Source: Variovorax sp. PBL-H6 (lineage in GTDB: Bacteria > Pseudomonadota > Gammaproteobacteria > Burkholderiales > Burkholderiaceae_C). Taken from it: DNA of 64,000 nt. A model generated the notes under the pieces. That model was not told the DNA's origin, made no database searches, and saw nothing but the letters and a program-made list of their open reading frames with translations. Numbering within the stretch: the stretch's first letter is position 1; every line of letters starts with the position of its first letter. Of this stretch, positions 41,763 through 64,000 are shown in pieces. The stretch spans positions 806,001 to 870,000 of the forward strand of contig NZ_LR594659.1 of the NCBI RefSeq assembly GCF_901827155.1, in the 5' to 3' direction. Made by a program: the position numbers and the translations under genes.

Positions 41763-42908
41763 TCAGCCGATCGCCACGCCCACCTTTGCGCCGGCGGCCA
41801 CGATCTCGCCCCAGGTTGCGTCGTCGATCCAGATGCCCTCGCGCTCGCGCGCCGCGCGCGCCTGGCGCTCGGGCTCGCCGGCGATCTGCACGCCCTCGAA
41901 GCCCTGGCCCGGCGGGCTTTGGCGCAGCCATTCGATGAAGAGGCGGGCCTCCTGCTCGAAGCTGGCCTGGGTGCCGAGTTTCGCCGGGTCGATGACGATG
42001 GCGAGCATGCCGTTGAGCACGGTGCGAGCGGTGTCGGGCTGGCGATGCCAGGTGCCGCCGCCCGTGAGCGCGCCGCCCAGCAACTCGCAAGCCACGGCCA
42101 TGCCGTAGCCCTTGTGCTCGCCGAAGGTCATCAACGCGCCGAACAGTCCGTTGCTCTGCGGCACCACGACGACGCCCGGGTCGTCCGTGGGGGCGCCGTG
42201 CTCGTCGATGAGGTAGCCAGGCGGCACCCGCTCGCCCTTGTTGTGGGCGACGCGCATCTTGCCCTGGGCGACGCGGCTGGTCGCGTAGTCCAGGATGAAA
42301 TGTTGGCCCCCAGGCTCCCCCACTGCGTGTGGGTCGCCACTCCCCGAGGGGGCTGCCCCGCCTTGGGGCGGCCCGGCGGCGGGGCGGGTCTCGGCGCCCT
42401 TCAGCGGAATCCCGATGCAGCAGGGATTGGTGCCGAAGCGCCCGTCACCGCCGCCCCACGGCGCGACCACCGGACGCGAAAGCACGTTGACGAAGTGCAT
42501 GGAGACCAGGCCCTGCCCCGTCGCCATTTCCGCGAAGTGCCCGATGCGGCCCAGGTGGTGCGCATTGGCAAGTGAGAGCACGCAGCTGCCGTGCTGCTTC
42601 GCGCGTTCGATGGCCATCTGCATGGCCTGCACGCCGACGATCTGCCCGTAGCCGCGCTGGCCGTCGAGGGCGAGCATGGGCCCGCTGTCGAGGTTGATCT
42701 TGACGGCAGTGTTGGGCTTCAGGCCGCCCTCGGCCGCCGCGTCGACGTAGCGCGGCACCATGCCGACGCCGTGCGAGTCATGGCCGCTGAGGTTGGCGAG
42801 CACGAGGTTGGCGGCGACCTGCTCGGCTTCGGCAGCGGTGCTGCCGGTGCCGGCGATGATGGCGGCGACCTGCGTGCGGAGGGTGGAGGCGGAAAGTGTC
42901 CGGGCCAT
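41763..42908 (-). CDS. Ldh2-family malate/L-lactate-type dehydrogenase with repeat-derived insertion
   Basis: A 381-residue NAD(P)-dependent 2-oxoacid reductase / 2-hydroxyacid dehydrogenase. Family marks are NLSGHDSHGVGMVPRY near residue 45, RPVVAPWGG, HFILDYATSRVAQGK and HKGYGMAVACELLGG. Typical members have about 350 residues. The excess is a Pro/Gly/Ala-rich block at about residues 174-201, encoded by a palindromic repeat read in frame. Its ATG shares a base with the uxaA stop (TGATG). In the cluster it may oxidise the hydroxyacid released by the FAH-type hydrolase, or reduce a pathway keto acid. Confidence 0.87.
   Translation of the reverse strand: MARTLSASTLRTQVAAIIAGTGSTAAEAEQVAANLVLANLSGHDSHGVGMVPRYVDAAAEGGLKPNTAVKINLDSGPMLALDGQRGYGQIVGVQAMQMAIERAKQHGSCVLSLANAHHLGRIGHFAEMATGQGLVSMHFVNVLSRPVVAPWGGGDGRFGTNPCCIGIPLKGAETRPAAGPPQGGAAPSGSGDPHAVGEPGGQHFILDYATSRVAQGKMRVAHNKGERVPPGYLIDEHGAPTDDPGVVVVPQSNGLFGALMTFGEHKGYGMAVACELLGGALTGGGTWHRQPDTARTVLNGMLAIVIDPAKLGTQASFEQEARLFIEWLRQSPPGQGFEGVQIAGEPERQARAAREREGIWIDDATWGEIVAAGAKVGVAIG
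42307..42388. repeat. Palindromic repeat inside the Ldh2-family gene
   Basis: This element begins CCCCCAGGCT, contains CACTGCGTGTGG, the stem CCCCGAGGGGGC and CTTGGGGCGGCCCGGCG, and has the layout of the repeats before argB. Translated on the minus strand it has no stop and gives a stretch with AAGPPQGGAAPSGSGDPH, absent from normal family members. Confidence 0.8.
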
Positions 42909-62481: not shown

Positions 62482-64000
62482 ATGCGCCGCAGCGGCGAAG
62501 CCCTTTCCCATCCCCATCACGCCTCGGCCAGCGAGCCGGCCCGGAGCGACCGCTCCGACTGGGCCACGCTTCGCCGGCTGTTTCCCTACCTCTGGCGCTA
62601 CAAATGGCGGGTGCTGGCGGCGCTGCTCTTCATGGTGGGTGCCAAGGTGGCCAACGTCGGCGTGCCGGTGCTGCTCAAGAACCTGGTCGACACGATGACG
62701 CCCAAGCCCGACATCGCGCAGGCGCTGCTGGTGGTGCCGATCGCGCTGCTGGTCGCCTACGGGTTGCTGCGCTTTTCGACCTCGCTGTTCGGCGAGCTCC
62801 GCGAACTGGTCTTCGCCAAGGCGACCGAGGGCGCGGCGCGCAGCATCTCGCTGGAGGTGTTTCGGCACCTGCATGCGCTGTCGCTGCGTTTTCATCTGGA
62901 GCGGCAGACCGGCGGCATGACGCGCGACATCGAGCGCGGCACGCGCGGCGTGCATTCGCTGATCTCGATGTCGCTCTACAGCATCGTGCCCACCATCATC
63001 GAGCTGACGCTGGTGCTGACGATATTGGGCGTGAAGTTCGATGCGCTCTTCGTCTGGATCACGGGTGCCGCGCTGGTGCTCTACATCGCCTTCACCGTCA
63101 CGGTGACCGAGTGGCGCACGCAGTTCCGCAAGACCATGAACGAGCTCGACTCGCTGGCGCAGAGCCGTGCCATCGATTCGCTGCTGAACTACGAGACCGT
63201 CAAGTACTTCAACAACGAGGAGTTCGAGGCGACGCGCTACGACGCCAGCCTCGACCGCTACCGCCGCGCCGCCATCAAGAGCCAGAGAACGCTGAGCCTG
63301 CTCAACACCGGCCAGCAGATGCTGATCGCGGTGAGCCTGGTGCTGATGCTGTGGCGCGCGACCGCGGGCGTGGTCGAAGGCCGCATGACGCTGGGCGACC
63401 TGGTCATGGTCAACGCCTTCATGATCCAGTTGTACATCCCGCTCAACTTCCTGGGCGTGATCTACCGCGAAATCAAGCAGAGCCTGACCGACCTCGACAA
63501 GATGTTCGTGCTGATGGAGAAGGAGCGCGAGGTGCGCGATGCCCCGGGCGCCCGGCCGCTCGCGGGGCGTGACGCCAGCGTGCGCTTCGAGGACGTGAGC
63601 TTTGCCTACGAGCCCTCGCGGCCGATCCTGAAGCATGTGAGTTTCGAGATTCCGGCCGGGAAGACCGTGGCGGTGGTCGGGCCGTCGGGCTCTGGTAAGT
63701 CCACCTTGGCGCGGCTGCTCTATCGCTTCTACGACGTCGGTATCGAGCCCCCACGGTCGCCCGCTACGCGTGGCTCCCTGCCCCCCGAGGGGGCCGCCGC
63801 CGGCTTGGGGCGGCCCGGCGCCGGCGGGGGCCGCATCCTCATCGGCGGCGAGGACATCCGTGAGGTGACCCAGGCCAGCGTGCGCCAGGCCATCGGCATC
63901 GTGCCGCAGGACACGGTGCTCTTCAATGACACCATCGAATACAACATTGCCTATGGCCGCCCGGGCGCCAGCCGAGCCGAGGTCGAGCAGGCGGCGCGGG
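62482..64000 (+). CDS. Atm1/HMT-type ABC exporter, partial, with repeat-derived insertion
   Basis: A fused permease-ATPase half transporter, cut by the right edge after 506 residues. Six membrane helices occupy about residues 40-320, with LNYETVKYFNNEEFEATRY typical of Atm1 proteins that export glutathione-type sulfur compounds or metals. The ATPase has VVGPSGSGKST (Walker A) and IVPQDTVLFNDTI (Q-loop); the signature and Walker B lie outside. Between them, after YRFYDV, about 28 extra residues (PPRSPATRGSLPPEGAAAG and more) are encoded by a palindromic repeat and precede GGRILIGGEDI. Confidence 0.92.
   Translation, partial: MRRSGEALSHPHHASASEPARSDRSDWATLRRLFPYLWRYKWRVLAALLFMVGAKVANVGVPVLLKNLVDTMTPKPDIAQALLVVPIALLVAYGLLRFSTSLFGELRELVFAKATEGAARSISLEVFRHLHALSLRFHLERQTGGMTRDIERGTRGVHSLISMSLYSIVPTIIELTLVLTILGVKFDALFVWITGAALVLYIAFTVTVTEWRTQFRKTMNELDSLAQSRAIDSLLNYETVKYFNNEEFEATRYDASLDRYRRAAIKSQRTLSLLNTGQQMLIAVSLVLMLWRATAGVVEGRMTLGDLVMVNAFMIQLYIPLNFLGVIYREIKQSLTDLDKMFVLMEKEREVRDAPGARPLAGRDASVRFEDVSFAYEPSRPILKHVSFEIPAGKTVAVVGPSGSGKSTLARLLYRFYDVGIEPPRSPATRGSLPPEGAAAGLGRPGAGGGRILIGGEDIREVTQASVRQAIGIVPQDTVLFNDTIEYNIAYGRPGASRAEVEQAAR
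63748..63830. repeat. 83-bp palindromic repeat inside the Atm1-type exporter gene
   Basis: It runs from CCCCCACGGTCGCCC to GGCGCCGGCGGGGG, with stem CCCCCGAGGGGG and the shared block CTTGGGGCGGCCCGGCG. It has the same length as the repeats before argB and is closely related to the one in the Ldh2 gene. It is translated on the plus strand without a stop. Confidence 0.82.

Follow-up and report, generated by a model that had tools for sequence, protein, structure and literature searches.

The window, a stretch of 64,000 nucleotides from the genome of Variovorax sp. PBL-H6, ends inside a gene for an Atm1-type ABC exporter, read on the plus strand from 62482 to 64000, where the window end cuts the open reading frame (639 amino acids in the genome). 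Its product has the Pfam domains ABC_membrane and ABC_tran, its best PDB relatives are Atm1, ABCB7 and ABCB6, which places it among the Atm1-type exporters, and the gene's nearest named relatives are those of Variovorax. The motif GPSGSGKST, which we take to be Walker A, is read from the sequence at 63679..63705 (plus strand). Further along the same strand, at 63739..63828, a loop of 30 codons, GIEPPRSPATRGSLPPEGAAAGLGRPGAGG, replaces the QQ of uninserted relatives, such that the exporter reads YRFYDV-GIEPPRSPATRGSLPPEGAAAGLGRPGAGG-GRILI, with the frame open on both sides of the loop. From GPSGSGKST to QDTVLF the exporter has 82 residues, as opposed to 54 in short-turn relatives, a net gain of 28; compared with PDB chains, the loop has 29 residues against 1 (7n58) and 31 against 3 (4mrn). 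Rereading the open reading frame confirms the sequence and frame described for this element in the earlier note, together with its figure of about 28 residues added after YRFYDV.

Within the loop, genome matches and alignment delimit a repeat copy that opens with CCCCCACG and closes with the outer arm (63748..63827, plus strand). At the loop site, 68 of the 80 named homologues fetched have a short turn (QQG in 52), as do 26 of the 30 best loci of the genus, own genome included (QQG in 20). The remaining 12 homologues carry either the repeat (L063, L064, L099 and L112) or another, longer loop (L104, L108, L117, L118, L124, L125, L126 and L130), and the remaining 4 genus loci are those of this genome (G000), G030, G052 and, in a partial form, G069. 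The nearest homologue, in G096, is 99% identical over residues 1–419 and reads DVQQGRI, with no loop, so that the extra length is not a general feature of close homologues. An insertion is thus present relative to uninserted relatives, as had been proposed, but it is not a clean one: the difference from the uninserted allele extends to nine more bases, 63739–63747 (GGTATCGAG), and the CAGCAG codons of that allele are missing.

A structure model was made for the protein of V. paradoxus ISL-3, whose insert differs by one residue from that of the window. The modelled insert stands between a helix (residues 404–413) and a strand (residues 451–454). Residues 414–450 form no secondary structure, pLDDT is below 50 for residues 414–448, and the means of 10-residue blocks are 24–46 over residues 411–450, in a model that is weak as a whole (mean pLDDT 63.9, pTM 0.47). 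The insert, which follows the Walker A helix and precedes the next strand, is accordingly predicted to be disordered, and the suggestion that it forms a loop fits this unstructured stretch, at the confidence of a model with a mean pLDDT of 63.9.

The repeat is not confined to the exporter. With the exporter copy as query, the genome yields 31 places at E ≤ 1, including the copy itself and a last few at chance level, so that the recurrence on which the earlier note depended is found at about 30 further places; with a typical copy as query, there are 34 places at E ≤ 0.05. A 17-base core, with up to 2 mismatches allowed, occurs once in the window, as compared with 0.05 expected by chance. Beyond this genome, the repeat is found in 98 of 101 genomes of the genus (E ≤ 0.001) and in at least 19 of the 300 searched from the order, this one among them, with nine family codes represented (E ≤ 1e-8; a lower bound, as at most three candidates were scored per genome). 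Eight records of a plasmid collection match, from Variovorax, Acidovorax, Rhodoferax, Burkholderia, Paraburkholderia and Azoarcus, and none of 50,697 phage records does (E 1e-5).

Some of the copies in this genome lie within genes. Among the 31 loci read, tandem partners and the weakest search places being set aside, 12 were placed inside genes and 11 of these are in frame, in the genes for the exporter, UvrA, Ldh_2, M16, T2SSE, RND, HutH, an ABC ATPase, a hydrolase, a FAD hydroxylase and PEPcase. Pfam or PDB matches flank or span the copy in the exporter, UvrA, Ldh_2, T2SSE, RND (ACR_tran), HutH, the FAD hydroxylase (FAD_binding_3) and PEPcase; in the M16 peptidase, ABC ATPase and alpha/beta hydrolase genes, Pfam covers one side and the other was judged by eye. 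One of these copies, at 42306..42388, is the second copy of the window; it is read in frame, on the minus strand, within a gene for a malate/L-lactate dehydrogenase (Ldh_2; 41766..42908, minus strand; assigned by Pfam and PDB, with the start codon chosen by eye). Its insert has 33 residues where 2g8y has 4, and similar comparisons with PDB relatives give 33 residues against 10 for UvrA and 32 against 5 for PilB (T2SSE), while the two halves of HutH meet at residue 454 of 1gkm, with a net gain of 28 residues. The names PilB-like, HrpA and SsuD are used here as presumed gene nicknames that go beyond the Pfam and PDB titles. Two weak matches were taken as chance: L029, and L030 (E 0.555), a 30-base match inside a DUF2239 gene.

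In G052, another genome of the genus, at least 6 of 23 sampled loci are in-frame copies in genes, namely MoaE, FemAB_like, UvrA, an HrpA-type helicase, a 2Fe-2S protein and the hydrolase; 35 open reading frames span copies at these 23 loci and 6 were given to Pfam, MoaE and the hydrolase matching on one side. In G030, a gene for a luciferase-like monooxygenase holds two separate in-frame copies (L164, 1508–1592 and 1786–1870). Two loci with copies at gene borders were also observed. At L006 (1501–1664), two tandem copies occupy the junction of two genes; ATGAGC recurs both at the borders of the copies and at the start codon that follows, so that stop and start codons seem to survive. At L182 (about 1498–1578), a copy with an in-frame ATG lies just before a hydrolase gene, to which it could add an N-terminal extension; this copy was left out of the in-gene count.

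The architecture of the repeat was read from 60 copies in this genome and ten relatives. It is about 84 bp long with a GC content of about 80%, and comprises three hairpins in the layout CCCCCACGCTC..CACTTCGTG..TCGCTGCCCCCCGAGGGGGC, arm X, TTGGGGCGGCCCGGC, arm X'. In the exporter copy, on the plus strand, the central hairpin GCCCCCCGAGGGGGC (helix 2 of the comparative structure) lies at 63780..63794, followed by the variable arm X (CCGCCGGC, 63797..63804), the conserved loop between the arms (TTGGGGCGGCCCGGC, 63805..63819, from the alignment and RNAalifold) and the variable arm X' (GCCGGCGG, 63820..63827), the exact complement of X with which it forms helix 3. X and X' differ among loci yet pair with each other: removal of 13 tandem copies and 6 at already counted loci from the 60 leaves 41, in which arms score 6.61 with their own partner as opposed to 4.79 (sd 0.148) when swapped, and none of 5000 shuffles reaches the former value.

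Five further copies were dropped for lack of a clean start, which leaves an alignment of 36 one-per-locus copies. In this alignment 88.2% of cells are paired under the three-helix structure, compared with 77.4% in shuffles (0/500), and 72 cells are changed on both sides, compared with 24.9 (sd 3.6; 0/500). Two of the five covariation measures fall short of a clear excess over shuffles: pairs with a two-sided change (9 against 7.0; 47/500) and further pair types (29 against 26.0; 63/500). RNAalifold, to which the structure was not supplied, recovers the same three hairpins with 11 pairs showing two-sided changes. Helix 3 of this alignment has 68 cells with two-sided change, 6 with one-sided change and the pair kept, and 53 unpaired. 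The scarcity of G–U type intermediates is odd for slow covariation and hints at copying of one arm from the other, a reading weaker than the ratio of 68 to 6 implies because the 53 unpaired cells include one-sided changes.

The word palindromic, as first applied to the element, is loose, since a single 93-nt piece folded as DNA shows no signal over dinucleotide shuffles (z 0.13), although structure is visible when copies are compared; the structural evidence is therefore comparative. Four loci submitted to Rfam returned nothing at the curated threshold and two matches, both far below the gathering score. One of these, to Xoo8 (26.4 bits; gathering 90), lies just past a repeat copy (L004, 1576–1726) and is probably chance. 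The unremarkable folding of a single copy, together with a GC content that leaves most frames open anyway, is what a chance GC-rich sequence or an assembly error would give, but the presence of the same insert in other genomes and a repeat family with complementary arms make this explanation scarcely credible.

Presence of the repeat at given loci is patchy between close relatives. Copies are absent from G096 or G094 at loci L001, L004, L023, L192 and L195, and at L019 this genome has one copy where G096 has two. At 36 non-tandem loci, the similarity between the left and the right flank is slightly above expectation (4.81 against 4.19, sd 0.175; 0/5000), a weak hint of target duplication. We also considered that the outer arm X' might be a captured host target; judged by eye, the arm is absent from the empty sites at L001, L004, L192 and L195, and the idea was rejected for these four.

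How the element might move is a related question. A Y1_Tnp match occurs in 97 of the 101 genus genomes, and G043, the only genome without one among 87 of good quality, has few copies (3 repeat matches, from 11 and 12 candidates), as would be expected if a genus-wide Y1 (REP-type) transposase moved the element in the manner of a REP/RAYT system. This genome has a sole Y1_Tnp gene (L143, 1462–2154; G000:C1:1335236-1335562), and the 3.3-kb locus around it contains no repeat copy, so that the repeat does not flank the putative RAYT. The low-copy genomes G012, G060, G071, G073 and G097 do have a Y1_Tnp gene, so that the number of copies shows no clear dependence on the gene, and the consensus of the repeat carries no GTAG or CGTC end; the REP/RAYT explanation is in our view unlikely. 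As a guess, a hairpin-based, single-strand mechanism acting in trans could move the repeat.

The exporter site itself has a history of its own. With the insert peptide as query (E ≤ 1e-12), the 101 genus genomes comprise 3 with a full-length match (G000, G030 and G052), a partial one (G069), 23 more in which the match is confined to the part right of the insert, and 74 with no match; individual reading of the loops covered 30 genus loci. Among 399 genomes of the family, five carry the full-length insert (G000, G104, G114, G154 and G230), each in a different genus, G307 has a partial form and 15 others with a match carry other loops. On a tree of 116 exporters from which the insert columns were removed, the full insert requires at least 7 state changes, and the three carriers in the genus do not form one clade (p-AU 7e-56). 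By contrast with the genes, 6 of the 7 insert sequences group together, and a single origin for them is not rejected (p-AU 0.21). Between G104 and G000, the insert is 92% identical over the element, as compared with 67–93% for the flanks in 60-nt windows, and the flanks are native to each lineage right up to the insert. A long recombinant tract as the source of the insert was therefore rejected.

These sequence relationships suggest that one old insert may have persisted, been lost, or moved from lineage to lineage in very short tracts. We lean towards a single arrival at this site, followed by recombination over very short tracts or many losses, and not repeated insertion: besides the clustering of the inserts, all seven share the same 9-nt spacing at the left junction, the same orientation and the same frame. 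The native flanks would hold any recombination tract to less than about 60 nt, the copy at L112 differs at both junctions and falls outside the insert group, and distant clades share short turns of the QQG type, all of which count against such a history. A single arrival concerns the history of the site and is compatible with our best explanation of the repeat. Because the exporter copies of different genera are related, the exporter site is no proof of recent movement.

Copies within genes do not use all reading frames equally. At the central hairpin, the SLPPEG frame is the one used by each of the 8 forward coding sites scored (the exporter, T2SSE, HutH, MoaE, FemAB_like, the 2Fe-2S protein and both monooxygenase sites). 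Reverse copies use two of three frames, one in 6 genes (UvrA, Ldh_2, M16, the ABC ATPase, RND and the helicase) and another in 3 (the hydrolase, the FAD hydroxylase and a dehydratase), and the third frame is absent from the set; the tally omits PEPcase and a second reverse copy in the open frame of the dehydratase (L167). A copy has on average 5.38 of its 6 frames open, compared with 5.00 in shuffles, and as copies are open in nearly all frames, stop codons alone do not explain the choice. It could reflect selection against Arg- or Cys-rich peptides, or insertion that depends on phase.

The twelfth in-gene locus of this genome, FemAB_like (L017), holds two tandem copies with an 82-bp period, and the frame is broken in the assembly. 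The break comes from a one-base shortfall in a run of C near 1501–1574 of the locus (G000:C1:3697181-3697340) and may be real or a sequencing error. At the same site, relatives have one copy (for example, G029, L170), two (G048, L152), three (G069, L150) or four (G052, L252), all in frame, and the tandem periods in three relatives are 81 or 84. Eight arrays at other loci, coding or not, have periods of 81, 82, 83, 86, 87 and 88. Across the genus the FemAB_like site presents a series, from intact copies through degraded-looking ones (for example, G072 and G015) and short loops with some likeness to the repeat (G059 and G041) to loops with no likeness (G091 and G097), as read in the 20 of 30 loci that fitted the reading pattern (10 did not). 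Read in this presumed direction, the series suggests that insert copies decay into ordinary loop sequence. A tentative extension, on which we place limited weight, is that the end hairpin is re-templated at each locus and that the repeat acts as a recurring source of in-phase loops in unrelated enzymes, with preferred frames, tandem growth, occurrence at a single codon position in several genera, and final erosion.

Taken together, the copies belong to a repeat family, lie in frame in many genes, have complementary arms and are patchily present. We consider it highly probable that they represent a non-autonomous structured repeat that is tolerated, where it lies in a gene, as a disordered loop on the protein surface, and that erodes in frame. 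The repeat would be a non-autonomous structured DNA element of Comamonadaceae and other Burkholderiales, with many copies at gene ends and starts and some inside genes, where the survivors would be those in frame at positions at which the protein can take an extra loop. Translation of such a copy would yield a loop of about 28 residues with a high content of Pro, Gly, Ala and Ser, probably without ordered structure. The exporter copy would make the turn that follows the Walker A helix longer while leaving the catalytic motifs untouched, and the exporter therefore most likely still works. Over time, copies in genes would erode in frame to ordinary loop sequence, and some would amplify in tandem. 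Translation, tolerance, mobility and the direction of decay are the parts of this explanation that we infer. Against it, the sole out-of-frame array in a gene, that of FemAB_like, belongs to this very genome.

The copies in genes could instead be kept for a function, either as mRNA hairpins that affect stability, pausing or termination control, or as a loop that tunes the protein. The core and the pairing are conserved between copies, five genera retain related alleles of the insert at a single site in the exporter, and the G104 and G000 inserts share 92% identity, against 67–93% in 60-nt windows of the flanks, each of which could be read as a sign of maintenance. The patchy presence among close relatives, the FemAB_like loops with degraded copies or none, and the occurrence of the repeat in unrelated proteins speak against such a function, which we regard as very unlikely.

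Several known systems resemble this repeat. Rickettsia palindromic elements, as described in PMC10969869, are short palindromic repeats of about 150 bp that lie in frame in unrelated genes and encode peptide inserts. The present repeat likewise lies in frame inside several unrelated genes, so that the parallel with Rickettsia drawn at the outset is apt. The host here is not a member of Rickettsiales, the closest relatives of the exporter gene being in Variovorax, and the repeat differs from the description of the Rickettsia elements in its length of about 84 bp, its three hairpins, its GC content of about 80%, its locus-specific arms and its in-frame tandem arrays. Palindromic repeats within genes are already published outside Rickettsia, Thauera included (PMC3733652). 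That paper (BMC Genomics 2013) reports intragenic GTAG/CGTC REPs in open reading frames of many bacteria, with uvrA and helicases among their targets. Their units are 20–40 bp long, some lie close to the ends of genes, and their stems occur in variants that complement each other. Palindromes inside open reading frames, uvrA and helicase targets, complementary stems and copies at gene ends are thus shared with those REPs, whereas the present repeat is two to four times longer and composite, and the consensus of 36 one-per-locus copies, inspected by eye, has no GTAG or CGTC end. MITEs, according to PMC10969869, are non-autonomous, dispersed, hairpin-forming and sometimes fused in frame to open reading frames, all of which applies to this repeat; its consensus, unlike theirs, has no terminal inverted repeats, and the sign of target duplication is only weak. 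A search of the open-licence PubMed Central literature yielded no paper that we recognised as describing this repeat, and full-text matching of three of its strings of 11–13 bases in the same collection returned unrelated papers only. The repeat, like several of its habits, appears to be undescribed.

The locus-specific yet complementary arms pose a mechanistic question of how the element copies itself. In-frame palindromic insertion is extended from intracellular Rickettsia to bacteria with large genomes, in which some hundred genomes from a single genus are available for comparison; the FemAB_like gene alone offers none to four in-frame copies and degraded-looking remnants within that genus. 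Whether repeats of this type supply proteins with new loops, a question of long standing, becomes testable.
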